Shown here piece after piece: positions 45,721 through 63,206 of a stretch of 64,000 bases of DNA. The stretch is taken from contig JADFWU010000001.1 of NCBI GenBank assembly GCA_015234045.1, positions 124,001 to 188,000 on the forward strand, in the 5' to 3' direction. Under the pieces are notes generated by a model. The model had not been told where the DNA came from and did no database searches. It saw only the letters and a program-made list of their open reading frames with translations. Source of the DNA: Magnetococcales bacterium (lineage in GTDB: Bacteria; Pseudomonadota; Magnetococcia; Magnetococcales; JADFWU01). Positions within the stretch are counted from its first letter, which is position 1. The number at the start of each line of letters is the position of its first letter. Made by a program: the position numbers and the translations under genes.

Positions 45721-47571
45721 ATGAAACGCTGGCTGATGTTATTTGTCTCAGTCATCTCTGTACTGATAGGGATCTATCCGGTTATCAGTAGCAGTCAGGC
45801 GCAGACAAATGAGGATGTAAATAATCCTTATCGTTCCAGCCATGCGTTGATTATTGGCGGGTCCAGCTATGGTGCTGGCTGGCCTACGTCCATACGATTT
45901 CGGCGAAAAATGCAGAAGTTAGGCTGGTTCCTCCATGAACAGGGATTTCGAGTCACTACTATAGAAGAACCTGTTTCTGATAATTTTGTTGAAGCATTTC
46001 ACTCCTTTTTCAAAACCTTTTCCAGTCATCCTGACCACCAGATATTGATCTATTTCGGTGGTCATAGTGTGGTGTTGCCAGATCGTGAAGAGAGTTATCT
46101 GGTGCCCATGGATGCGCCTCCACCAGATGTTGACCGTGACACTTTTTTAAAAAAAGCGTTACCGTTTTCCAAGTTGTTCGAGTGGAGTCGTAAACTGTCT
46201 GCACGCCATGTATTGTTTGTTGTAGAGGGTCCTGTTTTTCATGAGATTTTCCGTCGTGAACAGGGGGATCAACGTTCTCATGCGCTTGGTAGTGAATCCA
46301 TGAATGCCAGTCGTGAGGTGCTTTCGCGTTTGCCAGCATTTCGGACAGAGGGAAAGCCTTTTTTAGCGGATGGATTGGTACAAGGATTAGCCGGCGGTCG
46401 TGCAGACCAGAATGGCGATGGTTATATTACCGGCGCGGAGTTGGCTTGGTATCTCAGGCAGGATCTCGGCGGTGGTTTTCCTGTCAATTATGGCCGTCTC
46501 GGAGTGGATGGCGCTTTTCCAGGGCAGTGGTTGTTCACGGTTAAAGGACCCTATGCACCCGCTGTTCAACAAACTGTAGCCGTGGTAGCAGAACAACAAA
46601 CCGTTGCCCAAATAGTGCCTGAACCAACTCAGCAACAGCACCCTCTCAAGTCAACACGACCGACACCTCAACGTGTCCAGAATAACAAACCCGTTCAGGG
46701 AGGTTCCAATTCGCTGTTGGCTTCCGTACATAAAGAGGTGAGCAAAGTCCAATCCATCGCTCCTTCTCAAATGACTCAACAGGAAACAGAGCACGCTTCA
46801 AAAGTGACTCAACAGGAAACAGAGCACGCTTCAAAAGTGACTCAACAGGAAATAGAGCGCTCTTCAGCACCCAAAGTTTGGAAAGAAGCACTTACGCAGA
46901 TGAGCTTCAGTTTTGCTCCTGGTGGATGTTTCTTCGTTGGTAGTCCTGTTACGGAAGTGGGCCGGGATAAAGACGAATATATTAAAGAGGTGTGTGTTGA
47001 TCCATTTTGGATTGCACAACATGAGGTGACACAGGGGCAATGGAATCATTTCATGTCTGGCGACCCTTCGCGCTTGAAACTGGGGCCACAGTGGCCGGTT
47101 GATGGTGTCAGTTGGTTTCAGGCTAAGAAATTCATTGAGCTGATGAATGATAAAACAGGTGGTGGATTTCGGCTACCAACAGAGGCCGAATGGGCGTATG
47201 CCTGTCGTCTGGGACAACAGGAGCAACGCTATGCAGGTAGTAATACTGTAAGCCAAATTGCATGGTACGGAAAAAACAGTGCGTCAGGTCCTAAAAAGGT
47301 TGGCCGGAAACAGCCTAATGGTTTGGGATTGTTTGATATGAGTGGCAATGTCTGGGAGTGGGTTGAAGACCACTATCAGAGTGATTATTTCAAAACTGCA
47401 CCGAAACATAATCCTGTTAATTTAAGTATCACTCATCGTTCAAAACGGGCTTTGCGCGGTGGCGCTTATAACAGCAAGGAAAAACATTTGCGTTGTGCAA
47501 ACCGTTTCCCTTATCCACCGGAAAAATCATTAAATAGCATTGGATTTAGGTTGGCTCGGACAGTGCGATAA
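45721..47571 (+). CDS. Secreted pseudo-caspase / EF-hand / FGE-sulfatase fusion
   Basis: A 616-aa exported protein (signal peptide to about residue 28). Residues 40-275 have a caspase-like (C14) fold: HALIIGGSSYGAGWPTSIRF, ILIYFGGHSVV with His115. The Cys position, expected after the LFVV strand (D-x-C in caspases), reads VVEGPVFHE, so catalysis is unlikely. An EF-hand-like loop follows (DQNGDGYITGAE, 229-240). After a Gln/Pro-rich linker with three 11-residue repeats (352-384) comes an FGE-sulfatase/SUMF1 domain (EVTQGQWNHFM, RLPTEAEWAYACR, GLGLFDMSGNVWEWVED, RGGAYNSK). AGGGGAG precedes ATG 45721. Confidence 0.78.
   Translation: MKRWLMLFVSVISVLIGIYPVISSSQAQTNEDVNNPYRSSHALIIGGSSYGAGWPTSIRFRRKMQKLGWFLHEQGFRVTTIEEPVSDNFVEAFHSFFKTFSSHPDHQILIYFGGHSVVLPDREESYLVPMDAPPPDVDRDTFLKKALPFSKLFEWSRKLSARHVLFVVEGPVFHEIFRREQGDQRSHALGSESMNASREVLSRLPAFRTEGKPFLADGLVQGLAGGRADQNGDGYITGAELAWYLRQDLGGGFPVNYGRLGVDGAFPGQWLFTVKGPYAPAVQQTVAVVAEQQTVAQIVPEPTQQQHPLKSTRPTPQRVQNNKPVQGGSNSLLASVHKEVSKVQSIAPSQMTQQETEHASKVTQQETEHASKVTQQEIERSSAPKVWKEALTQMSFSFAPGGCFFVGSPVTEVGRDKDEYIKEVCVDPFWIAQHEVTQGQWNHFMSGDPSRLKLGPQWPVDGVSWFQAKKFIELMNDKTGGGFRLPTEAEWAYACRLGQQEQRYAGSNTVSQIAWYGKNSASGPKKVGRKQPNGLGLFDMSGNVWEWVEDHYQSDYFKTAPKHNPVNLSITHRSKRALRGGAYNSKEKHLRCANRFPYPPEKSLNSIGFRLARTVR
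46771..46869. repeat. 33-bp tandem repeat (three units) within the fusion gene
   Basis: Units at 46771-46803, 46804-46836 and 46837-46869 start [AG]TGACTCAACAGGAAA and encode TQQETEHASKV; the third has diverged. Confidence 0.9.
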
Positions 47572-47578
47572 ATGGTCA

Positions 47579-48169
47579 TCATTTGAGTGGACGTTGGATG
47601 CTCAGAATAATCCTGGCAGGGTGGTCGTCATTGATTTGCCAGAGCAGGCCCCGCTCTTTTAGTCTGGGAAATAATAACTGGGGCATGCGGGCAAGATGCG
47701 CTGTCAGTTCTTCACCGGGTTTGAGAAATGTACAGGCTTCCAAGATACGTACCATAGGTTGTGGTGGTGGCAGGTCAATCAGATCCAGAAAACCATGACA
47801 GGGGCGTTGGTCCGAAAGATCAGCTGAATGTCTGCCTTTGGGTAATCGTTTGGCAATGGGGCTGTGTTGGTGAATAAAACCACTGTGAAACAGCGTTTCT
47901 TCCTTTAAAATGAGTATTGCAAAGCCACGGTCTGTCATTACACGATACAGTGGGAACGGTTCAAAAGGGGTAAGCAGTTCTAACACGCCATCTTCCGGCA
48001 AACGATTGATCAGTGACATGATGGAGGCGAAGGGGTCTTGTCCTGTTTCCAGAATCGGACGACTATCCAGAAATAGGCGTTTTTGCACATCTATACTGTT
48101 TATAAAGGCATGCCATGTGTTGGCATCCAGATATGTTGGCTTATCTACAATCAATTGAGTCATGAGCAT
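47579..48169 (-). CDS. Tandem DUF2249-domain protein
   Basis: A 196-aa cytoplasmic protein with two DUF2249-like units. The first spans about residues 34-90: LDSRPILETGQDPFASIMSL, then DGVLELLTPFEPFPLYRVM. The second spans about 125-185: FLDLIDLPPPQPMVRILEAC, then PGEELTAHLARMPQLLFPRL. DUF2249 belongs to the TusA-like superfamily and often appears in nitrogen-oxide or redox loci. ATG 48163 is an equal start candidate. It converges with the fusion gene (7 bp apart). Confidence 0.75.
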   Translation of the reverse strand: MLMTQLIVDKPTYLDANTWHAFINSIDVQKRLFLDSRPILETGQDPFASIMSLINRLPEDGVLELLTPFEPFPLYRVMTDRGFAILILKEETLFHSGFIHQHSPIAKRLPKGRHSADLSDQRPCHGFLDLIDLPPPQPMVRILEACTFLKPGEELTAHLARMPQLLFPRLKERGLLWQINDDHPARIILSIQRPLK

Positions 48170-48223: not shown

Positions 48224-48928
48224 ATGTCACAGTTAAATAAAGCGGTAAACAAAACAGTAAATAAAACCGCGCGTGCGGATCCTTTTGCGGCATTTATGAA
48301 GCTTAAGGGCAAGCCGTGTTTGATGATTGGTGGACAGGGTGAGGCAGCGGATAAAATCCAGGTGCTCTTACGGGCTGGTGCGGAAGTTACACTGGTTGCC
48401 GAAACAATGAGTTCAGAGATGTCACAGGTTCTAAAAGAACATCCGGTAAATTGGCAACAAGTACCCTTTGCTCCACACCATCTGGATGGGGTTTGGTTGG
48501 TGGTCAGCACATTGACCGATGTTGTGCAGAATCGGACGCTGTTTGAGTTGGCCAGTGAACGTCAGATTTGGCTCAATGTGGTGGATCAACCTAAGAACTG
48601 CACCATTATTTGGCCAGCATTGGTGCATCGTTCTCCGATCACCGTTGCCATTTCAACAGGCGGTGCAAGTCCCGCTTTGGCGGGATATCTACGCGCGTTA
48701 ATCGAAAACCTTATTCCTCCTTCAATGGGTGAGTTGGCTTATTGGCTCTCTGGTTGGCGGCGGCGTGTTGGGCCGAAATTGCCGGACCTGGCAGCGCGTG
48801 GTCAATTTTGGCGCGTGTTGTTTGAAAAAGGTCTACCGGATTGCTTCCTGAACGGTGATGTGAAAAATGCAGAGAAAATGATACGAAAACAGGCGGATAT
48901 CTGGTCGGTTAAACTGGATGATTCATAA
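48224..48928 (+). CDS. Precorrin-2 dehydrogenase / sirohydrochlorin ferrochelatase (CysG N-terminal type)
   Basis: A 234-aa NAD-dependent enzyme of siroheme synthesis. LKGKPCLMIGGQGEAADKI is the Rossmann loop, AGAEVTLVAETMS follows, and NVVDQPKNCTIIWPALVHRS with VAISTGGASPALAGYLR are the CysG/Met8 signatures. GAGG stands 10 nt before ATG 48224. The N-terminus of about 20 residues is unusually basic and Asn-rich. No methyltransferase domain is fused, so this is a SirC-like single-domain form. Confidence 0.88.
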   Translation: MSQLNKAVNKTVNKTARADPFAAFMKLKGKPCLMIGGQGEAADKIQVLLRAGAEVTLVAETMSSEMSQVLKEHPVNWQQVPFAPHHLDGVWLVVSTLTDVVQNRTLFELASERQIWLNVVDQPKNCTIIWPALVHRSPITVAISTGGASPALAGYLRALIENLIPPSMGELAYWLSGWRRRVGPKLPDLAARGQFWRVLFEKGLPDCFLNGDVKNAEKMIRKQADIWSVKLDDS

Positions 48929-49076: not shown

Positions 49077-49469
49077 ATGACTGAATCGAGCACTCTGTTT
49101 TCCGAACAGTCGCCAATTCTGGATCAGGACCGGCTGACTGAACTATTGGAAGAGGTTGGAGACGAGGAGACGTTGGCGGCAATTTTTTCACTGTTTTTAG
49201 CGAAGCTTGCAGAGCGCGTCAGTGAGATTAAAAAGGCACTGACAGATCAAAATGCCGAAGCGCTGCAAACAACAGCCCACACGTTGAAAGGGGCTTGTCA
49301 AAATATCGGAGCAACCCGAATGGCTGAAGGGTGTCTGAGTTTGGAAATGGCCGGGCGGAATAGTAGTATTCCCAGTCATCCTAACTTGATGGAACAGCTT
49401 TCCAATGAATCGAATGTCTTGGATTCGGTTCTGGAAGCTCAGATAGAAAAGCTGGAAGCAGTTGGTTAG
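49077..49469 (+). CDS. Stand-alone HPt phosphotransfer protein 1
   Basis: A 130-aa helical protein. The phospho-accepting His68 lies in TTAHTLKGACQNIGATRM, the full HPt consensus. Helices are acidic with LEEVGDEETLAAIFSLFLAK before the site. It has no other domain. It starts a plus-strand unit of HPt-HPt-REC/GGDEF, with GGAG 6 nt before the ATG. It may take phosphate from the REC of the hybrid kinase at 52233-54362. Confidence 0.85.
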   Translation: MTESSTLFSEQSPILDQDRLTELLEEVGDEETLAAIFSLFLAKLAERVSEIKKALTDQNAEALQTTAHTLKGACQNIGATRMAEGCLSLEMAGRNSSIPSHPNLMEQLSNESNVLDSVLEAQIEKLEAVG

Positions 49470-49616
49470 TTGATGCGTGTAATTTAGTTGTTGGCTTTGA
49501 TTGATTTATTACCCAAACTGTTGTTACTTCGGGTAACCCCATGCTATTACCTGAAAAAATGATTGTTTGGCTGTCGTTATAAATGATCCCGAAGGGATCT
49601 TTCTGGGGGAAACTTC

Positions 49617-49928
49617 ATGAGTGCTGAAACTGGTCCGATAGTGGTACATCCCGACCCGGATCTTGAGGATATCATTCCTGGCTATCTGGATAATCGTCGT
49701 AATGAATTGCCTGCCTTGAAAACGGCTTTGGCTGATAACGATTTCGAAACATTGAAAATCCTGGGACATCGTATGAAAGGTTCCGGGGCTGGATATGGTT
49801 TTGATGGTATTACTGATATCGGCTTTATCATTGAGATGGGTGCGCGGGACGAAAATAGTGAGGCCATTGCTTCGGGTATTGAGCAATTGCTTTCCTATCT
49901 GGAACGGGTTGAAGTGGTTTATGAGTAG
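49617..49928 (+). CDS. Stand-alone HPt phosphotransfer protein 2
   Basis: A 103-aa protein with His51 in LGHRMKGSGAGYGFDG, the shorter HPt variant seen in DUF-like HPt proteins. The N-terminus (PDLEDIIPGYLDNRRNELPA) gives the first two helices. GGGGG stands about 7 nt before ATG 49617. It differs clearly from HPt 1 (HxLKG against HRMKG), so the two may serve different regulators. Confidence 0.82.
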   Translation: MSAETGPIVVHPDPDLEDIIPGYLDNRRNELPALKTALADNDFETLKILGHRMKGSGAGYGFDGITDIGFIIEMGARDENSEAIASGIEQLLSYLERVEVVYE

Positions 49929-49998
49929 CAGTAGATCCGCTGATGTGGTGATCTTTCGGGCTACATTTTTACTTTGAGATTGATATAGGCTTTTCCTT

Positions 49999-51735
49999 AT
50001 GGCGAGTGCCATGTCCGGTTATGATAGCCCGCATATTTTAATTATTGATGACTCGCCTGATGATCGTCTGTTGCTTCGGACTATTCTGACGAAATCGGGT
50101 TATAAGAATCTTCGCATGGCAGAGTCTGCCAAAGCGGCTTTTCGAATAATGGGTATTGAGGGAAATGATCCCACAGAAGCCAGAGTGGATATTATCCTTC
50201 TGGATGTCATGATGCCCGCAATGGATGGTCTTGAAGCGCTGGAGAAAATTAAATCCACGCCTTCAGTATGTGATATTCCTGTGGTAATGGTCACGGGAAA
50301 CACCAGAGTAAAAGATCTTGCCGCGGCTTTTTCTTTGGGGGCTATGGACTATATCAATAAGCCCTATAACAAGATGGAGTTGCTGGCGCGGATCAGTGCT
50401 GTTGTCTCTGTCCAGAGGGCTGGAAGGCAGGTTAAAGCCAGTGAGCAGCGACTCCGTGATTTGACCTCAGCACTGGCCGAAGGGCTAATGAGCACGGACA
50501 AAGAGGGCAATATTCTTTTTCTTAATCCGGCTGGTGAAACGTTGCTTGGATGGCAAGAGTCTGACGTTGTAGGCAAACAGATTGTTGATCTGTTATGTAT
50601 CCGCAATGAAGGCCATCTTGATATGCGTTGTGCGTTTCTAGAACAGATCCTTTCTCATTCCATATCCCAGTTGACTGGTGAAGTCACTTTTACCAGAAAA
50701 GACAAATCCCGATTTCCTGTTTCATATACTGCTGCAAGCATGATGAATGAAAATGAGGTCATAGGCAGTGTGATCTCATTCAAGGATGTTACGCACAGGA
50801 AAAAAGCCGAGGCGCGTTTGCGTTTGGCTGCCAGTGTCATGGATAACAGTCAGGAAGGGATCATGATTGTCTCTCCTGATGCAAAGATCCAAGAGGTGAA
50901 CCCTGCTTTTTCTGTGATTACTGGTTATAGCCGTGAAGAGGCGTTGGGTAATAACCCGAGCATGCTGAAATCCGGTCGTCATGACGCGACCTTTTTTAAT
51001 GAATTGTGGAACACTCTGGTGGTGGATGATTGTTGGAAAGGTGAGATCTGGAACCGCCGTAAATGTGGCGAAGTCTATCCTCAATGGCTGAGTATCTCAA
51101 CCATCCGTGATGATCGGGATCGCATCACCCATTATGTTGGGCTTTTCTCTGATATCACTGCTCGCAAAGAGGCTGAACAACGGCTGACACATCAAGCCTA
51201 TCATGATTTACTGACTGGTTTGCCCAACCGTATGCTGTTACAGGATCGTTTGCGAAAGGCGATTGACCAAGCCACACGAAAAAGCAGTTATGTCGGCATT
51301 TTATATATGGATTTGGACCGATTCAAGCCCATCAATGACACGTTAGGTCATGAGGCGGGTGATTCGGTACTGCGGATTATTTCCGAACGTTTGAAAAAAC
51401 TGGTTCGCGCCAGTGATACTGCTGCACGGGTAGGTGGTGACGAATTTGTTGTGGTATTGGACGAGGTAAGCGGTGCTGAAGATGTAACGCCAGTAGCTGA
51501 TAAGATTATCCAGTCAATTTCCCAGGAAATTCATCTGGATGATGGAGAAATCTGTTCTGTTGGCACCAGTGTGGGCATGGTACTGTTTCCAAAGGATGGC
51601 GACGATCCTGATTTATTACTCAAACGTGCTGATGAAGCGATGTATGCAGCAAAACGTGCTGGCCGACAGTGTTGGCGTTGGTGGAGTGAAGAGTTGTCCA
51701 ATATTAAAGAAGGGTCTGGAGGGGCGCGTTCGTGA
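49999..51735 (+). CDS. REC-PAS-PAS-GGDEF diguanylate cyclase
   Basis: A 578-aa cytoplasmic response regulator. REC has ILIIDDSPDDRLLL and ILLDVMMPAMDG (D69). Two PAS domains follow (about 150-275, 275-400: GNILFLNPAGETLLGWQESD; IQEVNPAFSVITGYSREEAL). GGDEF starts at 479 (ARVGGDEFVVVLDE) with an intact A-site and the inhibitory RxxD (RASD) five residues before. So it should make c-di-GMP under feedback. No EAL domain. ATG 50011 is an alternative start. The dtd GTG overlaps its stop. Confidence 0.92.
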   Translation: MASAMSGYDSPHILIIDDSPDDRLLLRTILTKSGYKNLRMAESAKAAFRIMGIEGNDPTEARVDIILLDVMMPAMDGLEALEKIKSTPSVCDIPVVMVTGNTRVKDLAAAFSLGAMDYINKPYNKMELLARISAVVSVQRAGRQVKASEQRLRDLTSALAEGLMSTDKEGNILFLNPAGETLLGWQESDVVGKQIVDLLCIRNEGHLDMRCAFLEQILSHSISQLTGEVTFTRKDKSRFPVSYTAASMMNENEVIGSVISFKDVTHRKKAEARLRLAASVMDNSQEGIMIVSPDAKIQEVNPAFSVITGYSREEALGNNPSMLKSGRHDATFFNELWNTLVVDDCWKGEIWNRRKCGEVYPQWLSISTIRDDRDRITHYVGLFSDITARKEAEQRLTHQAYHDLLTGLPNRMLLQDRLRKAIDQATRKSSYVGILYMDLDRFKPINDTLGHEAGDSVLRIISERLKKLVRASDTAARVGGDEFVVVLDEVSGAEDVTPVADKIIQSISQEIHLDDGEICSVGTSVGMVLFPKDGDDPDLLLKRADEAMYAAKRAGRQCWRWWSEELSNIKEGSGGARS

Positions 51736-52187
51736 GGGCCGTTGTCCAAAGGGTGCTTGAAGCATCGGTGATGGTGGATGGTGTAAGTGTCGGCCAGATT
51801 GATAAAGGGTGTCTTGTTTTTTTGGCCATTGAAAAGGGTGATGGAGATGACCAGTTGGATAAGATGGTCAGAAAAGTGGCCCGTCTGCGGATCTTTCCCG
51901 ATGATGCTGGTAGGATGAATCTATCTGTCAAAGAAGCGGGTGGTGCGTTGCTGGTTGTGTCTCAATTCACTTTGGCTGCGGATATGAAAAAAGGCTATCG
52001 CCCTTCATTTGGTAAGGCAGAACAGCCTGAATTGGCTGAAGAAATGGTTAAGCGTTTTTGCACTATCATCACCGATGAAGAGGGTATTGTTGTTGAACAG
52101 GGTCAGTTTGGTGCTGACATGAAAGTACATCTGGTCAATGATGGGCCTGTGACCATATGGTTGGATTTTCCACCGATTTCTGCATGA
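51732..52187 (+). CDS. dtd: D-aminoacyl-tRNA deacylase
   Basis: A 151-aa protein removing D-amino acids from tRNA. The start RAVVQRVLEASVMVDG and the active segment VVSQFTLAADMKKGYRPSF are typical, as is VNDGPVTIWLD at the end. GTG at 51732 overlaps the cyclase stop by 4 bp, an unusual partner. It ends 45 bp from the convergent kinase. Confidence 0.95.
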   Translation: MRAVVQRVLEASVMVDGVSVGQIDKGCLVFLAIEKGDGDDQLDKMVRKVARLRIFPDDAGRMNLSVKEAGGALLVVSQFTLAADMKKGYRPSFGKAEQPELAEEMVKRFCTIITDEEGIVVEQGQFGADMKVHLVNDGPVTIWLDFPPISA

Positions 52188-52232
52188 TTTTCATTTCCTT
52201 ATAGAAATATTCCTCTGTGAGTTTGTTTCCGC

Positions 52233-54362
52233 TCATATCTTATTCTGTCCAATCTGGGCACTGATTCTCTGAATTTCTTCAATGAGGTGTTTTTTCTTGA
52301 TGGGTTTGACCAGATGAGCATCGCATCCGACAGCTAGGCTTTTGCGTTTTTCTGATGCAAGGGCGTGAGCGCTCAGGGCGATGATAGGCAGTGGGGGGTG
52401 TCCCAGTTTTTTTTCCCAGGCACGGATCTTTCTTGTCGCCGAATAGCCATCCATGACAGGCATCTGAATATCCATAAGTACCAGGTCAATGCCGCCTTTT
52501 TTGATGCGTTCGACTGCTTCCAGGCCATTGACGACACCCTCCAATTGCCAGGGTGTTTTCTTGAGGTACGTTTGAATGAGAATTTGGTTGTCCTCTGAAT
52601 CTTCTACAAGGAGAATATTCATGGGTAAAAGGGCAAGGGATTGTGACAGGGGATTATCATGCGGTGAGGATGCTGGGGTTTCGGTAGGGGGTAGTGGGAG
52701 AGTGATATGGAAGGTTGAGCCTTGATTTAGCGTACTCTCTACGCTGATGGAGCCGTCCATCATTTCCACCAGATTATGTGAAATAGCCAATCCCAAGCCC
52801 GTACCGCCGTAACGTCGTGAAATACTGGAATCCGCCTGGGTAAATTTGTCGAAGACCTGCGCCAGATGTTCCGGAGCAATTCCCACACCGGTATCAGTGA
52901 TTGAGAGATTAAATTGTTTGGTCGAATGGTCATAGTGCACATTAAAGGTAATTTGGCCCTTATCGGTAAATTTAACCGCATTGGTCAATAGGTTCATCAA
53001 AATCTGTCGTAGGCGCCCTTCGTCACCCATCACCCAAGGGGGAAGGTGTGTCATCTTATTGTAGGTGAAGACCAATCCCTTCTCTTCTGCTTGGATTCTC
53101 ATAATATTGATGATTAAAGAAAACAGGGCTCCGGGTTGGAGTGGTCGTTGCTCCAATTGGACTGCGCCAGCCTCTATCTTGGAAAGGTCGAGTATATCAT
53201 TGATCAAAGTGATAAGGTGGTCGCCGGCCTTGTTGACCATGGACAGCTGATCCCGTTGTTCATCGGTCAAGATGCTTTCTTGTAAAACATCGCTCATGCC
53301 AAGGAGTACGTTAAGGGGAGTTCGGATCTCGTGACTCATTACGGCCAGGAATTCACTTTTTGCCTGATTGGCTTTACGGACTTCTTCAATGGCTTTAGTC
53401 TGAGCTGCTTGTGCTTTCTCCTTAGCTACCCTGTCCTGACGGGCTGTGATGATCTGGGCGCAGGCTGATACCACTGGTGTGATGGTTTTTAGTAGTGTTT
53501 CATCATAGCCACCGGCACGATTGGCCAAGCCGATTTCTCCGACCAATAGGTCGCCATATTTGACAGGGATGCCCAGGAAAGCGTGGAGTTTCGGGTGTCC
53601 CAATGGTGTACCTTTGCTGCGTGGATCTTGTTCTGGATTGTTGGCAATAACTGGTTTTCCGCTGGTGATAACATGGCCGATGAGGTTATTCAGATTGGTG
53701 AAAATCAACCCTTTGGTTTGGCTCTCATTGTAGATACGTCTTGTCTCTTCATTCCAAGAGACATTGGAAAAAGCATGTAATTTCAGAAATGGTTTGTCCT
53801 GGTCATCTTTTAAGACATCGCCGATGAAACCATATTCGCTTTCGGTGAGGGTCAGAATATCCCTGAGAAGCGCATCGAACATTGCTAATGGATTGGATTC
53901 GCGGATGAAATGCTCACGCAACCTGTCGATACATTCAATGATATTGGTTTTTTCCTGCAAGGATTTGATGATTTCTTGACGTTCAATGGCGTAATGGATG
54001 GCTCGAGAGAGTGTCAAGGAGGTGAGTTCATTCTTGGAGATATAATCCTGGGCACCTTCTGTGATTGCGTTAAGACTTACGGATTTGTCCGTATGGCCTG
54101 TCAAAACCACGATTGGCACTTTAGGCAGCCATTGATGGATATGGCGAATGGTTTCCAGTCCATGACTGTCAGGAAGGGTGAGGTCCAGCAGTATGACATC
54201 CCAGTGGGAAGGGCTTGACAGAGCCTGTTCAACCTCAGCCAAGCTCTCGAACATATCCAGGGAAGCAACTTTTTGGTCGCTCTGTTGAAGAACCTCACGG
54301 ATCAAGCGGGCATCTCCTGGATTGTCTTCTACCAGCAGAATATGTCGTGCTTGGCTATTCAC
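52233..54362 (-). CDS. REC-GAF-HisKA-HATPase-REC hybrid kinase
   Basis: A 709-aa cytoplasmic protein. The first receiver is [14 protein letters not shown]...[13 protein letters not shown] (D60). A GAF domain covers about 150-305 ([31 protein letters not shown]). HisKA has [17 protein letters not shown] (H344). HATPase shows [12 protein letters not shown] and [15 protein letters not shown]. The C-terminal receiver has [13 protein letters not shown] and [16 protein letters not shown] (D631) and no HPt. GTG 54362 with GAGG 9 nt upstream overlaps the REC gene by 8 bp. Confidence 0.92.
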
Positions 54363-54816
54363 AGCATTTATCCTCAGGTAGTTGAACCACTGTGAACCAG
54401 AAGGCCTCAATATTGGTGATTACTTTCATAAACTGATTGAAGTCTAAGGGCTTTTTGATATAGCAGTTGGCATGAAGGTCATAGGCCATATCGATATCTT
54501 CATTCGCATTGGATGTTGTTAATACCACCACAGGAATACGTTTTAGTGTCTCGTTAGACTTAATTTCAGACAACACATCCCGACCATCTTTTTTCGGTAA
54601 ATTGAGATCCAACAGGATTAGATTTGGGCGGGTTGCTTGCTCGAAAGGGGGGTGACGCAGGAGGTATGACATGGCCTGTTCACCATCTTCAACATGATTT
54701 ATCCGTAGAAGAAGCTTGCTTTCCTTGAAGCTTTCCTCGGCGAGACGCGCATCACCGGGATTGTCCTCTATCAGCAATATCTCAATGGGATTGACGTTCT
54801 GTCCGGTAATATTCAT
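54355..54816 (-). CDS. Rcp1-like single-domain response regulator
   Basis: A 153-aa CheY-like protein: [35 protein letters not shown] (D70), [12 protein letters not shown] and CYIKKPLDF. The extended alpha4/alpha5 and LNLPKKDG signature match Rcp1, the partner of phytochrome-type kinases. It sits between kinase 54813-56366 (ATGA overlap) and the hybrid kinase, so it probably takes phosphate from the upstream kinase. Confidence 0.92.
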
Positions 54817-56366
54817 CGGGTTATATCCTGTTTAAACGGCAAAATAAAATAGAAGCGACTACCTTTTCCATGTGTAGACTCAACTCTTAGTACTTCACCA
54901 TGACGCTTTACGATTCGCTTGCAGACGGCGAGACCGATGCCGGAACCAGGGAATTTAGTGCGTCCATGGAGCCGTTTAAACATGGTGAAAATCTGCTGCT
55001 GATCTTTTTTGGCAATGCCAATGCCATTATCACTGACGTTGATTTGCCAACCTGTTTTGGTTTTTTCAGCAGTGATGTTGATCTCTGGAGGTGCATTACC
55101 GTGAAATTTGAGAGCATTGGTTAACAGGTTCTGCAAGAGCCGAAAAATCTGGTTTTGATCGCAATAAACCACGGGCAGTTCTGTCGCAACGATTTTGGCT
55201 CCGCAATCCTCAATCTGCAAGCTTAGATTGGCCGTTACATCCTTAATGATCGTGTTCATATCAGTGTTATTGAAGGTCTCGCCTTGAGTCTCAACCCGAG
55301 AGTATTGCAATAATCCATCAATCATGGCTGACATGCGGTGAGCACCATCCACTGCGAAATTAATGAATTCATTAGCATCCTGGTCCAGCTTTCCCTGATA
55401 GCGGCGGGAGATCAACTGAAGATAGCTGGAGACCATACGCAACGGCTCTTGTAAGTCATGGGATGCGACATAAGCAAAATCCTGAAGATCACGATTCGAT
55501 GCGTTAAGCCGTGCTTCCACTTGTTTGCGGGTTTCTATCTCCTGATTGAGCAATTCTGTTTTTTGCTCCAACTCCTGGGTACGGATCTGGACATGATGCT
55601 CCAGTCTGTTATGGGTTAAATGGATTTCATGAGCCATTTTTTCCATATTTCGAGCCAACGCGCCCAACTCATCCTGGCTATGGACACCTATCTTTTGGAT
55701 CTGTTGTTTGTTGGCGATCAGTGTCGCGGCAGAATGCAATTGATCCACCGGATTCAGTATGAATTTCCTGATTAATATGATTATCGTGATGGTGATTATG
55801 GCCATGACCAGTAATGCTACGGTGAGGGTGCTGTTGCGGATCTTACTCAGCGACGTTTGAATGTCCTGGCCATCCAATACCAGAATAATGATCCAGTTCC
55901 AGGGTTTGAACTGCTTGGATATGCAGATGATATCCTGTTCTTGCTTGGAATGGCGCAATAGTGTTTGGAGTCGGTGGGATGTGGCACAAATATCCAGTTG
56001 GCTTTTGAAGCCGGGTCTGATTTCGTCGCTGTTTGGATGCTCTGTTGTATGAAGGAGTTGGCCTTCAGGTGAGACAATAAACAGATGACCTTCCTGGCGG
56101 GCTGTGATCTGGTCAGCGGCTTTCATTGCTTCCTGTTGATACTGGTTGACGAAAGAGCTGATCTCTGTGGCACCAAGTGTTTCCAACAGGTTATAACGAT
56201 GGAGGATTTCGCTATGCACATAGCTCTCTAACATGGTCTTCAAGTAGAGCGATGTGGTTTGATTGACCATTTTGATCGCAGCATTGTAGTGCCACCAGCC
56301 CAGCCCGATGATGGCAAACAGTGGCAGTGGCAGTATTGCCAGCATTAATTTGGCTCTCAGAGTCAT
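54813..56366 (-). CDS. Periplasmic-sensing histidine kinase (phytochrome-type HisKA)
   Basis: A 517-aa protein: TM1 (about 7-24), a periplasmic dCache-like sensor (25-180; HLFIVSPEGQLLHTTEHP), TM2 (181-200), HAMP (203-250), coiled coil, HisKA with VASHDLQEPLRMVSSYLQ (H303), HATPase_c (LQNLLTNALKFHG, DNGIGIAK, GSGIGLAVCKRIV). ASHDLQEPLR is the mark of phytochrome-like kinases pairing with Rcp1. It overlaps the substrate-binding gene by ATGA and is probably its signal receiver. Confidence 0.9.
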   Translation of the reverse strand: MTLRAKLMLAILPLPLFAIIGLGWWHYNAAIKMVNQTTSLYLKTMLESYVHSEILHRYNLLETLGATEISSFVNQYQQEAMKAADQITARQEGHLFIVSPEGQLLHTTEHPNSDEIRPGFKSQLDICATSHRLQTLLRHSKQEQDIICISKQFKPWNWIIILVLDGQDIQTSLSKIRNSTLTVALLVMAIITITIIILIRKFILNPVDQLHSAATLIANKQQIQKIGVHSQDELGALARNMEKMAHEIHLTHNRLEHHVQIRTQELEQKTELLNQEIETRKQVEARLNASNRDLQDFAYVASHDLQEPLRMVSSYLQLISRRYQGKLDQDANEFINFAVDGAHRMSAMIDGLLQYSRVETQGETFNNTDMNTIIKDVTANLSLQIEDCGAKIVATELPVVYCDQNQIFRLLQNLLTNALKFHGNAPPEINITAEKTKTGWQINVSDNGIGIAKKDQQQIFTMFKRLHGRTKFPGSGIGLAVCKRIVKRHGEVLRVESTHGKGSRFYFILPFKQDITR

Positions 56367-57442
56367 TGGTGGATATCCAAAAATAGATTGGGTCCGGCCA
56401 ACTCCAATAAATCAGAGGGAGGCAAAAAACCCAGATTGCGGATTGCCGCAATGTTCAACCCCAAATCAATTTCTTTGGGAGGAACGATGGGAAACTGATT
56501 TGGAGATGTACCATTCAGAATGGCAAATGCCATAATTGCCGCTTCTTTGCCAGTAGCATCATCGCTGGGTGTAATATGTATCAGGGCACCCATATGGACA
56601 ATTTCGAAATTGGTCCCATAGGCAACCGTATGGGAAGAGTGTTGCCGAAATTGACGAAGAAACTCCGGTCGTTCACCTAAAGGGCCGCTGGGATGCCACC
56701 AGTAATCTACCTGGTCTTCAAGTTCGATAATGTATTGATGTGTTTCAACCAATAATGCTGGAAGTTCAGCAGGAATCGGTCGATAAGGGATCTCTCGGGT
56801 AATGAAGGTCACGTTGTCGAAGGCTTTGGCTGCTTCTTTCAGAAGCGCGGCATCACCTTTGGCTGAGGGGTAGCTGGTATGAATGAAACCAAATCGAATC
56901 GGGCGGTTATGATTGTCACGATCGAGAATTTTAAGCACCACACGAATTTTTGTTTTCCGATCTGCTGAGTGAACCTTTCCTGTGATGCCTTGAACATCCA
57001 CTCTTCCCAGATTGGGTACGATTTTAGCGCCAACGGGATCAGAAACAGTAAAAAATATTTGGGGAATAGATCGATTCTGTAATAAAAGTTCATGGCACAC
57101 CTGGGATGCCATAGTGGCACTGGTGACCACGATATCAACGGGTTGAGTGTTTAAAACCTTTTCCAACATGGTACGAGTACGGGCACGGTCACCGTTGGGT
57201 TGGAGTAGGGTTATGGTCAAATTTTTTCCATCCACATAGCCCATTTCTTCCAGATGGTATAGAAAGGCCTTGGTATGATTTAAAACTGGAATGACGGGCA
57301 TGCTTTGGACCAATACCAAGTGTTTCTGGGGCAATTGTGTTGTAGATTGGGGTGCTGCACAGACGCTGTTCGTTACCAGGGCAAGAGTTGCCCATAATAG
57401 TCCAATGATGAAGGTCTTAAGATCATCCGCTATTCGTTGCAT
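56363..57442 (-). CDS. ABC-type substrate-binding protein (ABC_sub_bind/TrpX family), orphan
   Basis: A 359-aa protein with signal peptide (FIIGLLWATLALVTNSVCAA). The core includes HLVLVQSMPVIPVLNHTKAF, YVDGKNLTITLLQPNGDRAR and PVDIVVTSATMASQVCHELL, the layout of PF04392. No permease or ATPase lies next to it. It is fused by overlap with the kinase at 54813-56366, so it most likely presents a ligand to the sensor rather than to a transporter. AAGGGGG precedes ATG 57442. Confidence 0.85.
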   Translation of the reverse strand: MQRIADDLKTFIIGLLWATLALVTNSVCAAPQSTTQLPQKHLVLVQSMPVIPVLNHTKAFLYHLEEMGYVDGKNLTITLLQPNGDRARTRTMLEKVLNTQPVDIVVTSATMASQVCHELLLQNRSIPQIFFTVSDPVGAKIVPNLGRVDVQGITGKVHSADRKTKIRVVLKILDRDNHNRPIRFGFIHTSYPSAKGDAALLKEAAKAFDNVTFITREIPYRPIPAELPALLVETHQYIIELEDQVDYWWHPSGPLGERPEFLRQFRQHSSHTVAYGTNFEIVHMGALIHITPSDDATGKEAAIMAFAILNGTSPNQFPIVPPKEIDLGLNIAAIRNLGFLPPSDLLELAGPNLFLDIHQ

Positions 57443-57498
57443 CTTTCAACCCCCTTTAAATTGGATTGTAGATGAAAGTTCTCTAATATTTCATTCTG

Positions 57499-59199
57499 TT
57501 ATACGCTGGGCAGTGTGAAATGGAACGAAGCACCTTGATTCTTTTCTGATTCAACCCAGATTCGACCGTGGTGGTGTTCAACAACTTTTTTGCAAATGGC
57601 TAAGCCAATACCTGTACCTTCGCCTTCGGTAGGTCCCTGAAGGCGGATAAACAACCCAAATATCTGGCTTTGATGACGCGGTGCGATGCCTTGTCCCTTA
57701 TCTGAAATAATAAATTTGATCTGTTTGCCTTGCTCACTTGCAGTGATTGTTATCTCAGGAGGTGATTCCCCCGAATTTTCCAAAGCGTTGCGCAGCAGGT
57801 GATGGAATAGCAGACGTAATTCACCGGGATTGACATGGACCCAGGGAAGGTCGTTTATAACCACATTGGCCCCGGTTTGTTGTATGGTCTCCTGGAGTGC
57901 GGTTAACTCTTTATTCAGGGTTGCCCTGGTATCGACATCCGAGGAGGTCGCTGTGGGAACGCCCACTTGGGCGTAGACCAATAACCCATCTAAAAGCCGT
58001 TGCAGACGTTTGGCGCCGGAAACAGCGTAATCAATATATTCACCTGCCTGTTTGTCCAGTTTTTTGCTGTAACGCTGGGAGAGAAGTTGAGTGAAGCTGG
58101 CGATGAGGCGCAGAGGCTCTTTCAGTTGATGGGCGGCAACCCGGGCATATTGGCGCAGTTCTTCATTGGAGCGGCGGATAGCATCTTCCGCTGCTTTGCG
58201 TTTGGTAATATCCAACAGGTTGATGACATAGTATTGGACCACCGAGGCTCCGGTTTCCTCGTTGTTATCACTATCATAATGGCCATCAGTGCTTTCCAGA
58301 ACCGGTTCTTCAACCCAGGTGATGTCCACATAGACGGGAAAGGTTGAACCATCACTGTGTACATGCCGTGACTCAAAGGTATGGTGGCCGTTGGCTCGGG
58401 CATTGGCCAAGTAGTCAACAACGGACTCCCGTTCTTCGTGGGTGAAAATTTCGGCAAACGGTCTTCCAATAAGCGCATCGTCAGTCATTCCATGCAAGCG
58501 GTTAAAGGCTGGATTCATCATCTCCATGAACGTGGTATTGGCATCCACTACGCCCACGCCCCACTGACCAAACTCAAATACATGGGACCAGCGGCGCAGT
58601 TGGTCCTGATAACGGGCAAATCGCAACGCTACTGAAGCTAATTCACCAAAAGTTGTTGCTATTTTGGCATCCTCATCGGTAAAGTCACCCTCTTTGTTGG
58701 CCATGCCGATAAGTCCAACGGTTTTGTCATTGAGTACGATAGGTGCAAACATGACATTTTTCAAAAAGACATGGCCTTCGGGCATAAAACGCATCCAATC
58801 ACTTTTGAAAAAATCGTTGTCATATACAGCACTGTTGGTCTCATAACAGACTGCCCGTAATCCACGGATCGGCATGGGAAGATTGGGATCTACCGTACAA
58901 GGCATGCCACCCGCTTCCAAAAACAGAACTTCATTCTCTTGCCCATCCTCTGACAGCATGGCTACATAACCAGAACGGGCACCGGTGAGTTCACAACAGG
59001 TGTCAAAAATGGATCGGGCTGAATCGGAAAATGTGTGGGAAAGGGGGATGGCTTTGGCAGCACGCAGCAGGGCTTCACTCTCTACATTCTTCTGGTGGGC
59101 GGTATTCAAAGCCAGGCGGGTCTTTTGTAGTTCGGCTAATAATGCTTCGTGACTAAAATTAGAAAAGTCATCCAAGGTATGATGATCATTGGTAGTCAT
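57499..59199 (-). CDS. GAF-PAS histidine kinase
   Basis: A 566-aa cytoplasmic protein. GAF covers about 45-195 (YVAMLSEDGQENEVLFLEAG), PAS about 205-335 (VVDANTTFMEMMNPAFNRLH). HisKA has ARVAAHQLKEPLRLIASF (H357). HATPase shows LLRNALENSGE, DKGQGIAP and GTGIGLAICKKVVEHH. Its kinase core is a paralogue of 54813-56366 (QLLSQRYSKKLD against QLISRRYQGKLD). GGGGAG precedes ATG 59199. It is the first gene of the minus-strand signalling operon. Confidence 0.9.
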   Translation of the reverse strand: MTTNDHHTLDDFSNFSHEALLAELQKTRLALNTAHQKNVESEALLRAAKAIPLSHTFSDSARSIFDTCCELTGARSGYVAMLSEDGQENEVLFLEAGGMPCTVDPNLPMPIRGLRAVCYETNSAVYDNDFFKSDWMRFMPEGHVFLKNVMFAPIVLNDKTVGLIGMANKEGDFTDEDAKIATTFGELASVALRFARYQDQLRRWSHVFEFGQWGVGVVDANTTFMEMMNPAFNRLHGMTDDALIGRPFAEIFTHEERESVVDYLANARANGHHTFESRHVHSDGSTFPVYVDITWVEEPVLESTDGHYDSDNNEETGASVVQYYVINLLDITKRKAAEDAIRRSNEELRQYARVAAHQLKEPLRLIASFTQLLSQRYSKKLDKQAGEYIDYAVSGAKRLQRLLDGLLVYAQVGVPTATSSDVDTRATLNKELTALQETIQQTGANVVINDLPWVHVNPGELRLLFHHLLRNALENSGESPPEITITASEQGKQIKFIISDKGQGIAPRHQSQIFGLFIRLQGPTEGEGTGIGLAICKKVVEHHHGRIWVESEKNQGASFHFTLPSV

Positions 59200-59513
59200 G
59201 ATAGCTCCCCCTGCTGTTTTTCAACCATGCAGTAATCTGGTCTATATGGCTGTCAGAGCAGGACTGTATTAACGATATGTTAAAGTATATTGTGCACTAT
59301 CAATTCAATAGTATTGAACTAATGGGTTAGAGATGCAAATGGAGATTGAGGTTCCCATAAAAATTGTTAATTCAGGCTCTTTCGAAAACGCTCAGATCTG
59401 CAAGAAATTTTACGGGGTTCAACTGTGGTTTGCTCGGTTAGGGATAGGGGTATTGTCTAGGAGGATTATGAAGCAATTAATTGTTATTAATAAATATATT
59501 TATTATTACTGTC
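59200..59513. other. Intergenic region upstream of the signalling operon
   Basis: 314 bp, AT-rich, without a gene. It carries the operon promoter, but no convincing -35/-10 pair was chosen. Confidence 0.4.
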
Positions 59514-62500
59514 TCATTCAATCGAGCCAAAACCGCCGCCGCCCGGTGTGCTGATCTCCAATGTGTCGTGGCAAGCGACTTCTCCTTGATACCGTCCTGG
59601 CAGTATTTCTTCTGTACCATCAGCGCGAATTAATCGATTGATACCCATTTTTCCAGGCTGGCCGCCATTGAGTCCGAATGGTGTGCAGTTACGCCGTTGA
59701 GAGAGTAGAGTAATGCTCAATGGCTCCAGAAAATAAAATCGCCTGACCACACCATCACCGCCATGCCATCGACCCAATCCGCCGGATTTGTTGCGTAGAG
59801 AGAACGCTGTCAATAACAGCTTGGGAAAGCGGTATTCCAATACTTCCGGGTCGGTGATTCGGGTGTTGGTCATGTGGACCTGAACGCCGGAGGCACCGTG
59901 CGCTCCTTCAATGGCACCGGAACCACCAGCAATGGTTTCATAGTACTGTGTGCCTGTTCCATCAGGGCGACCAAACAGAAAGTTGTTCATGGTGCCTTGA
60001 GAAGCAGCGGCTACGCCTAACGCACCATACAGCACATCTACAACACGTTGAGAGGTTTCCACATTGCCGCCGGAAACCGCAGCGCCAGGGCGTGGATTGA
60101 GTAGACTATCATTCGGTATACGGATTTCTATGGGATCAAGACAGCCATCATTAAGTGGAATATCGTCCTGAATCAGGGTGCGAAATACATACAGAACTGC
60201 TGCACGAACAACGGCTTTTGGCGCGTTCAGATTTTCAGTATGGGTGGCACCACTCCCATTGAAATCTACGATTGCGTGGACTTTTTTGTCTTGGGTATCA
60301 CGTGTGAGTGTGAGTGTTACGGAGATGATTTCACAGTCATCCAGATGATCTTTAAAGGGTTTGACCAATCTATCATTCTTGCCGAGTAGTCTATCCAATG
60401 CATGAGTCATTGCAGCGGCGGCATTCTCTCTCATATGGTCCATATAGGCGGTGATTACGTCATCACCGTATCGATCACACAGGGTATTCAGTTCTGACAG
60501 ACCACGATTGTTTGCCGCAATCTGAGCGCGAAGGTCAGAGAGGCGTTCAGAGAGATTGCGGGCTGGCCAGGGTTTGGTATTGAGGGTCTGCATGATTGCG
60601 GTTTCTTGCAGTTGACCATCACGCACCGCCAGAAGATTGGAAAATACCACACCCTCTTCAATCAAAGTGGTGGCAAACGGTGGCATGGAACCGGGTACAG
60701 TGCCGCCAATATCTGCATGATGGCCGCGACTGGCGACAAAAAAGGCGGGTTTTCCTTGACGAAATAGTGGTGAAATCACTGTTACATCAGGAAGGTGTGA
60801 ACCACCATGCAGCGGATCGTTGGTGATATAAGCATCACCGGATTGCAGTTTGTTTCCTTTGGTCTGGCTGTGTTGAATCAGAGAATAAACTGTCTCGCCC
60901 ATGGCACCGAGATGAACCGGAATATGTGGTGCATTGGCAATCAATCGACCCTGTTGATCAAAGATCGCACAGGAAAAATCCCAGCGTTCCTTGATGTTGA
61001 CAGAGTGGGCGGTACGGGCCAACGTTTCGCCCATCTGGCTGGCAATACCCATGAAACGGTGGTTAAACAGTGCCAATAGGATTGGATCATGTTTGGTTGT
61101 GACATGTTCTTGATATTGCTTCTGCTTGGTCAGTGTGAGCAGACCATCACCGTTACGGCTGGCATCAAAGCCTGGTTCAACAACAATGACCGAATGGGGT
61201 TCGATAATCAGCGCAGGTCCGGTAATGATCTGATCAATTGGCAGATCATCCCGTTGATAGAGCGGTGTTGACACGGGGCCGTCACTGTCAAACCAGACGT
61301 GTTGATGCTCTACAGCGTGTAGTGTGTTTCCTGAAGTTATGGTCTGGCTTTGGTGTTGGTGGGTATTTTCAGAGATTAGAATCACCTCTACTCTGAGATT
61401 AACCAATTCCGGCGGCGTGTCTGAGGCACTAAAGCCATAATATTGCCGATGCAGATTGCGAAAGCGTTGGATCAGGCGGGATGGATCACTATGAAACGGA
61501 ATCGTCAGTGGTGTTTCAGTTCCAGGTGTGCGTAAGTCCACCAATATTTGACGATCAAAACGAGGCTGTGCGGCAGCGGATGTCATGACCAACTCTTCGA
61601 GGAGTTGTTGTTCCAGAGTATGACAGATGGTTTGTGCTTCCGTGTTGATTTTGTTCAGCTCAGTTGCACTGGTTCCCGTCATTCGGGTTGCAATGTGTTG
61701 GCGGCTGTGTCGTGCATTGGCAATGCCCCAGGCGGAGAGCAGGCCAGCCAAAGGGTGGATGCGTATTTGAACCATATCCAGAATTGACGCTATTGCACAG
61801 GCATGTTGACCGCCTGCGCCACCGAATGAGACCAGACCATGTTGGCGCAGATCAAAACCACGGGCTACAGAGAGCGCTTTAACCGGTCGGCTCATGGTCT
61901 CATTGGCAACTTGGAGAAATCCCAATGCCAAGGCTTCTGGACTTAACTTATTACCTGTTTTTTCGGTGATAATTTTGGAAATCTCGATAAAACGAGTGTG
62001 AGAGGCAGTGGCATCCAGTGCACTATTACGTTGAGGGCCAAAGGCTTTGGGAAAACGATGGGCTACGATACGACCAAGAACAACATTGGCATCGGTAATG
62101 GTGGCGGGTCCGCCCAGGCCGTAACAGGCTGGACCCGGATTAGCGCCGGCAGAGTCTGGACCAACGGTGAGTTTTCGTCCGTCAAAGCTCAGAATAGAGC
62201 CACCACCAGCGGCAACGGTCTCCACATGCAGCATTGCTGCCTGATAGCGAATACCGGCGGTTTCCACCTCTAAAGTACGTTCCAAGGCACCATCATAGCG
62301 ACACACATCGGTAGATGTGCCACCCATGTCAAAGCCGATGGATTGACTATCTCCTGTGGTCTCAGCTAGAGCTTGAACACCAAGTACACCGCCCGCTGGA
62401 CCGGATAAAATGGCATCTTTACCAGAAAATCCTTCAGGTGGCAGAAGCGTGCCGGCACTGCTCATGAAATGGATTGGAATATCGCCGGTCCATTGGCGAA

Positions 62501-63206
62501 CCTGACGAATATAGCGTTTGAGAACCGGTGTCAGATAGGCATCAACAAGGGTCGTTTGACCACGACCAACCGCTTGAATCAGTGATAGCGTTGCATGAGA
62601 AGGAGAGACCTGTTCAAATCCCGCATGACGTGCAATTTCAGCAGCCTGTTGTTCATGCTGTGGATTTTTCCAGCTGTGCAGAAAAACAATCGCAATGGCT
62701 TTAATACCGTGTGACTTGAATGACTGTAAGGCGGTTTTGATAGCATCCGTATTCAGGGATTCCAGGCACTTACCTTGAGCATTCATCCGTTCAGGGATTT
62801 CAGCTACAGCTTGGTAGAGTTTTTCGGTTTTTTTAATTGCCAGAGCAAATAGTTCGGGTCGTTGTTGGGTGCCAATTTCCAGAAGATCACGAAAACCTTT
62901 GGTAATTAACAGGCCGACCGGGCTGCCTTTGCGCTCTAGTAGGGCATTGGTTGCTACTGTTGTACCAAGCCGAATCCAGGCGACCTTACGCGCTGGTATG
63001 ATCTCATTCTGACCTAAACCAAGCAGTCTACGAATACCTTCAATGGCGGCATCCGGGTAGGTGCTGGATTGAGAAAGCAGTTTGCAGGCATGGTGCTGAC
63101 CGTCCGGAGCAATGCCAATGATATCAGTAAAGGTGCCGCCACGGTCTACGGCAAAACGCCACCGGTTGGAACCGGTGGCGTTAGTGGTATTTGTCTTGGT
63201 TTGCAT
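59514..63206 (-). CDS. Fused 5-oxoprolinase / hydantoinase A-B
   Basis: A 1230-aa ATP-dependent amidohydrolase joining HyuA-like (about 1-690) and HyuB-like (about 715-1230) parts. [19 protein letters not shown] is the ATP-binding start, [18 protein letters not shown] and ATVAAGGGS-like [16 protein letters not shown] follow. The second part has [31 protein letters not shown], and [15 protein letters not shown]. The single-chain form equals eukaryotic OPLAH and some bacterial types; the likely substrate is 5-oxo-L-proline, though N-methylhydantoin or caprolactam-type substrates cannot be excluded. Confidence 0.9.

Follow-up and report, generated by a model that had tools for sequence, protein, structure and literature searches.

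Here we analyze a stretch of 64,000 nucleotides from the genome of a Magnetococcales bacterium (GenBank assembly GCA_015234045.1, contig JADFWU010000001.1, positions 124,001 to 188,000; hereafter, the window, with positions counted from its first letter), focusing on HPt2, a small stand-alone histidine phosphotransfer (HPt) protein encoded next to a diguanylate cyclase (DGC) (Table 1). Gene content, orthology, adjacency, receiver (REC) subtype membership, missing HPts and synteny, compared across genomes, indicate that HPt2 is probably a shared hub through which about 30 hybrid histidine kinases (HK) lacking their own HPt would feed into the synthesis of cyclic di-GMP (c-di-GMP). The first-pass annotation of this locus had instead assigned HPt2 to a dedicated phosphorelay made up of genes on both strands; we find that the eight signalling genes involved fall into two adjoining groups that are unrelated to each other.

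HPt2 qualifies as a stand-alone HPt protein, with a PF01627 match above the cut-off, the invariant histidine and neither a kinase nor a receiver domain elsewhere in the protein. A single-copy ortholog (41-63% identity) is present in 44 of the 48 Magnetococcia genomes, including all 27 good ones, and HPt2 is the sole stand-alone HPt of its genome for which class-wide orthologs were found; the other stand-alone HPts examined in the class include no class-wide orthologous set. The protein belongs to a family with the signature GHRMKGSG[AG]GYG, in which H51 is invariant. Its AlphaFold model (pLDDT 91.6) is a four-helix bundle with the histidine on a bundle helix, and HPt folds rank first in the Foldseek search with this model, though with weak E-values (0.015). 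The best matches in the PDB, by both sequence and fold, are to the Chaetomium HPt (8pbw, 8rqj), and HptB is among the nearest solved folds. The model also contains short strands outside the bundle (residues 8-10 and 98-100) that match the conserved IVV and VEVVY motifs. No NCBIfam model matches HPt2, and no relatives were found in viral contigs.

A genome scan yielded 171 relatives of HPt2, the best 80 of which come mainly from Magnetococcales, Desulfobacterota, Nitrospirota and Nitrospinota; those of Nitrospirota and Desulfobacterota are about 45-59% identical. The gene order in Nitrospira is REC, REC-GGDEF, HisKA-HATPase-REC-REC, HPt2, and the usual order in Desulfobacterota is HK-REC-REC, HPt2, REC-output, where the outputs, judged from sequence, include a secretion-ATPase-like protein with receivers, a PP2C-like phosphatase and a nucleotide-cyclase-like protein. 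Whereas the HPt is conserved, the receiver protein encoded next to it has a different output from lineage to lineage (L143, L126, L145, L119), the outputs being GGDEF, OmpR-type winged helix-turn-helix, PP2C-like, cyclase-like, ATPase-like and sigma54-activator-like. At three loci of the Desulfobacterota type (L117:6287-8896, L128:6284-8941 and L158:6368-8599), HPt2 is followed by a protein that, judging from sequence, is a GspE/PilB-like secretion or pilus ATPase flanked by one or two receivers, which suggests that a pilus or secretion motor may be under the control of a phosphorelay.

The predicted relay from HPt2 to the DGC is strongly supported by exclusive adjacency, and we consider it highly probable. 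Full-length orthologs of the REC-PAS-PAS-GGDEF protein (45-56% identity; G000, G001, G014, G015, G037 and G038) are always encoded directly beside HPt2, as is an interrupted copy in G039. Among 377 collected receivers, the REC of the window DGC is closest to those of REC-GGDEF proteins beside HPt2 in other lineages. With a REC carrying the phospho-accepting aspartate and an intact GGDEF motif (residues 479-483), the protein qualifies as a REC-GGDEF response regulator; the RxxD I-site is intact as well. In most other Magnetococcia, an OmpR-type regulator comes after HPt2, and G001 encodes the DGC and the OmpR-type regulator in a row; a likely ortholog of this regulator (53% identity) is present in the window genome, unlinked to HPt2, on contig C32. 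A second REC-GGDEF gene was observed by a REC-HK-REC kinase gene in G000, beside an HPt-bearing frame truncated by the end of the contig (L271, G000:C10:500-3857).

The donor side of the proposed hub is defined by a receiver subtype. The terminal receivers of HPt2-adjacent hybrid kinases in other phyla are strikingly alike, and when the terminal receiver of the window hybrid is compared with the same 377 receivers, they account for most of its nearest matches. A profile constructed from 20 such receivers, none of them from Magnetococcales (denoted A2), was searched against whole genomes at E <= 1e-40. It detected 33 receivers in the window genome and 28 in the complete genome G037 (single contig, 4,719,581 bases). 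In other phyla, 15 of the 16 HPt2-encoding genomes have 1-4 each; 62 randomly chosen Pseudomonadota controls have none. Many orphan candidate donors of one receiver subtype thus accompany a single universal HPt, against a ratio close to 1:1 elsewhere. Among the 66 hybrid kinases that could be delimited in the window genome, an HPt in the same frame is absent from 28 of the 30 A2 kinases compared to 18 of the 36 non-A2 kinases (Fisher p = 1.3e-4). The chains of A2 kinases stop within 33 amino acids after the receiver in all 20 cases examined in G037 and in 30 of 32 in the window genome.

The window hybrid, which was correctly described at first pass as ending in a receiver and lacking its own HPt, scores 171.5 bits against A2, ranks about 23rd within its own genome and is therefore not special. 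It is a plausible donor to HPt2 on the same receiver data as the hub as a whole, one among about 30 equivalent kinases and not a dedicated one. Its adjacency to HPt2 was considered as evidence and set aside as weak: a genome of 3.65 Mb that encodes about 30 such kinases is expected to have about 0.085 of them within 5 kb on either side of HPt2.

Across 53 A2 receivers (mean identity of 51% within the window genome), D607, N608, L611, Y/F615, C696 and K706 are nearly invariant. Compared to the receivers of HPt-bearing kinases, the biggest differences concern residues 607 (D, as opposed to I/V), 696 (C, as opposed to M), 615 (Y/F, as opposed to M), 706 (K, as opposed to a mixture) and 611 (L, as opposed to V). 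Helix alpha1 and its loop account for much of what sets the subtype apart (p = 0.0016, for a region picked after seeing the data). In the Chaetomium REC-HPt complex (PMC11224324), docking takes place mainly through the beta1-alpha1 loop and helix alpha1, and these are also main docking surfaces in the model of HptB with PA1611 (PMC7467158).

Several observations weigh against a hub of this kind. All published REC-HPt contact positions taken together are no more discriminating than other positions (p = 0.44), because half of them are invariant in both groups. There are 18 further HPt-less hybrids without an A2 receiver, and two A2 kinases possess their own HPt. The presence of A2 in the 15 HPt2-encoding genomes of other phyla is partly circular, HPt2-adjacent receivers having been used to build the profile; the Magnetococcia and control counts are free of this circularity. 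The search of the 62 controls covered A2 only. DGC orthologs were detected in only 7 of the 44 HPt2-encoding genomes; c-di-GMP is therefore not an output common to the whole class. Finally, the kinases could share the subtype because they descend from one family, its members having since switched partners.

The alternative that survives best is that HPt2 and the DGC are a true relay pair serving few kinases, the A2 receivers being a kinase-family signature with mixed partners or acting as phosphate sinks or dimerisation devices. This explanation, which we regard as rather unlikely, draws on the solid HPt2-DGC pairing and on the non-significant test over all contact positions. It does not readily accommodate the absence of the subtype from all controls, the lack of an HPt in nearly all A2 kinases, the near invariance of docking-face residues over 53 paralogs, or the lack of any other class-wide stand-alone HPt found for the window genome.

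Under the hub model that we favor, the approximately 30 hybrid kinases, the window hybrid included, would autophosphorylate, and the phosphoryl group would move to the terminal receiver of each kinase and then to His51 of HPt2. HPt2 would hand it over to Asp69 of the adjacent REC-PAS-PAS-GGDEF protein, setting its diguanylate cyclase activity, with the OmpR-type regulator as a likely second acceptor, unlinked in the window genome and adjoining HPt2 in most relatives. Every phosphotransfer step in this scheme, its direction and the effect on c-di-GMP are predictions. The minus-strand block (binding protein, membrane kinase, Rcp1-like receiver, soluble kinase and hybrid) would be a separate accessory import, of which the hybrid alone would plug into HPt2.

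The history of this block bears on the first-pass proposal that a ligand acts through the binding protein, the membrane kinase, the hybrid and HPt1 or HPt2 on the DGC. All the parts do fit into 10 kb, and the hybrid ends in a receiver whose subtype is the right one for HPt2. However, none of the genomes examined keeps the two strands together, the very outcome that the first-pass annotation had named as refuting its proposal, and on this and on synteny we rejected the two-strand unit. In G037, G038, G012 and G039, the 5-oxoprolinase-like gene comes after dtd on the same strand, within about 45-90 bases. The window differs in that five minus-strand genes separate the two (52187-59514) and the oxoprolinase gene is inverted. 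Because the block is located between normally adjoining genes and next to an inverted one, it looks like an insertion accompanied by rearrangement, and the convergent layout is therefore no evidence of joint function. The direct same-strand adjacency of dtd and this fused hydantoinase A/B gene in the four genomes is at loci L078, L083, L084 and L089. Together with the rank of the hybrid among the A2 receivers of its genome and the self-contained homologs described below, this makes a dedicated two-strand system improbable. What stands of the proposed path from ligand to c-di-GMP is the predicted step from HPt2 to the DGC, full-length DGC orthologs occurring only beside HPt2, and the hybrid as a plausible donor, its terminal receiver being of the subtype that adjoins HPt2 in other phyla; the participation of HPt1 and the route from the ligand via the membrane kinase to c-di-GMP lack comparative support.

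The binding protein itself has matches in 5 of the 48 class genomes, with close homologs (38-43% identity) only in G037 and G038, where they precede a fused HK-REC-HPt kinase or a hybrid kinase, far from HPt2. These two homologs of the binding protein-kinase pair bring a receiver and an HPt of their own. Widening the sample to 398 genomes added one distant case, again adjoining a sensor kinase, and a sensor kinase partners the binding protein at each of the four homologous loci that are close or fairly close. The N-terminal 250 amino acids of the window membrane kinase are homologous to the sensors beside the homologous binding protein in G037, G038 and G279. This arrangement resembles the TorT/TorS type (also LuxP/LuxQ), in which the gene for a periplasmic binding protein directly precedes that for a membrane sensor kinase, but the window kinase lacks the REC-HPt tail and is followed by the Rcp1-like receiver gene. 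We rejected its classification as a TorS-type unorthodox kinase: the chain stops after the HATPase domain, and it is the homologs in G037 and G038 that have REC-HPt. Because its gene shares an ATGA overlap with the kinase gene, the Rcp1-like receiver is the probable acceptor of the membrane kinase, and, judging from gene order, the ligand route more likely ends at this translationally coupled receiver than at c-di-GMP.

The idea that HPt1, rather than HPt2, accepts from the window hybrid, the two HPts having separate or opposing roles on the DGC, is even less probable: HPt1 has a good HPt domain and a counterpart at the same place in G015 (37% identity), but none at this locus in other genomes, and most of its relatives are terminal HPt domains of hybrid kinases whose receivers belong to another subtype. 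HPt1 was likewise rejected as the core HPt, there being no class-wide counterpart.

Table 1. Genes and domains of the window at and around the HPt2 locus
Feature	Coordinates	Strand	Basis and remarks
CysG-N-like sirohaem protein	48224..48928	+	Upstream flank conserved at HPt2 loci; Pfam, synteny
HPt1, second stand-alone HPt (H68), accessory	49077..49469	+	PF01627, 58 bits
HPt2, stand-alone HPt (103 aa, H51), proposed hub	49617..49928	+	PF01627, 28 bits
REC-PAS-PAS-GGDEF diguanylate cyclase (DGC; D69)	49999..51735	+	Pfam; adjoins HPt2
dtd, D-Tyr-tRNA deacylase, housekeeping neighbour, not signalling	51732..52187	+	PF02580; kept beside HPt2 loci
REC-GAF-HisKA-HATPase-REC hybrid kinase	52233..54410 (TTG start)	-	Pfam; GTG start at 54362
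Terminal receiver of window hybrid (residues 599-713), A2 subtype	52272..52616	-	
Single-domain Rcp1-like receiver (D70)	54355..54816	-	PF00072
Membrane kinase: Cache-like sensor, HAMP, HisKA (H303), HATPase	54813..56366	-	Pfam
PF04392 (ABC_sub_bind, TrpX-like) substrate-binding protein, putative ligand sensor of membrane kinase	56363..57442	-	
GAF-PAS-HisKA-HATPase soluble kinase (H357)	57499..59199	-	Pfam
Hydantoinase A/B (5-oxoprolinase-like) gene	59514..63206	-	Inverted versus relatives; marks the apparent insertion

As a parts list, the first-pass annotation of the eight signalling genes holds: open reading frames and Pfam searches place all of them, with their domains and strands, as described. 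The phosphorylatable residues given in Table 1 were confirmed, and so were those of the hybrid, H344/D631 in the GTG frame being H360/D647 in the TTG frame. Both ATGA overlaps among the minus-strand genes are present (56363-56366 and 54813-54816); the claimed 8-bp overlap of the hybrid gene holds with the GTG start and becomes 56 bp with the longer TTG start. The plus-strand operon runs on into dtd, whose GTG start overlaps the stop of the DGC gene; this had been missed. The genome (3.65 Mb) encodes 100 HisKA domains, at least 150 REC domains (the best 150 of 228 candidates) and 31 HPt matches, as counted from profile searches; because such components are so abundant, kinases adjoining HPts are weak evidence in themselves. 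Upstream of the CysG-like gene is a gene for a DUF2249 protein (47579-48169), found also near the HPt2 loci of several relatives (L074, L077, L078, L084, L093), and further upstream (45721-47571), one encoding an N-terminal caspase-like domain (Peptidase_C14) and a C-terminal FGE-sulfatase domain joined by a Q/T-rich linker with TQQETEHASKV repeats.

Two-component signalling is usually insulated one-to-one. Among the closest known parallels to HPt2 is the HptB hub of Pseudomonas, where several unlinked hybrid kinases (PA1611, ErcS', SagS and RetS), proposed or shown to be donors, feed one stand-alone HPt that affects c-di-GMP and signals to HsbR/HsbA, with the DGC HsbD (PMC5085249). However, HPt2 and HptB are not closely related, and we rejected orthology, given only a remote profile match (HptB 7c1i, E 9e-5) and the lack of an NCBIfam match. 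Moreover, the GGDEF protein in the window is itself the receiver protein; no partner switch of the HsbR/HsbA type (REC-phosphatase and anti-anti-sigma factor) is encoded at the window locus, where the neighbors are CysG, HPt1, the DGC and dtd; and about 30 donors are predicted for HPt2 compared to four for HptB. In the fungal relay, several hybrid kinases likewise share one HPt, Ypd1, which passes the signal to Ssk1 and Skn7 (PMC11224324), whereas HPt2 is bacterial and is predicted to act on a c-di-GMP cyclase and an OmpR-type regulator, and the donor receivers form one tight sequence subtype. The relays of Nitrospirota and Desulfobacterota share with the window the HPt family, the donor receiver subtype and, often, a REC-GGDEF output, but their hybrid is usually encoded beside HPt2, with 1-4 such receivers per genome, whereas the Magnetococcia donors, about 30, are scattered. 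Bacterial many-to-one cases involve two to five kinases according to a recent review (PMC12471899), and Magnetococcus appears in a survey of how two-component genes are organised (PMC3018481) only on account of a nine-domain protein. We found no description of the HPt2 family or of such a hub in the open-licence papers searched, and the best reading is that the proposed HPt2 hub is a fresh variation on the HptB/Ypd1 design.

For Magnetococcia in general, there is an even chance, in our estimate, that about 30 hybrid sensor kinases per genome signal via one universally kept HPt into a c-di-GMP cyclase, an OmpR-type regulator or both. This would be a fungal-like many-to-one phosphorelay much larger than those described, having arisen as donors multiplied around a relay whose counterparts in other phyla are almost one-to-one. 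The combination of an A2 receiver and HPt2 would provide a sequence test that gives a predicted partner to many orphan hybrid kinases of Magnetococcia, Nitrospirota and Desulfobacterota. If the hub model is correct, the roughly 50 paralogous receivers in two genomes would be a natural set for the study of receiver-HPt specificity, and a class that keeps about 30 donors compatible with a single HPt would illustrate how numerous inputs can be integrated at one node of a cell.

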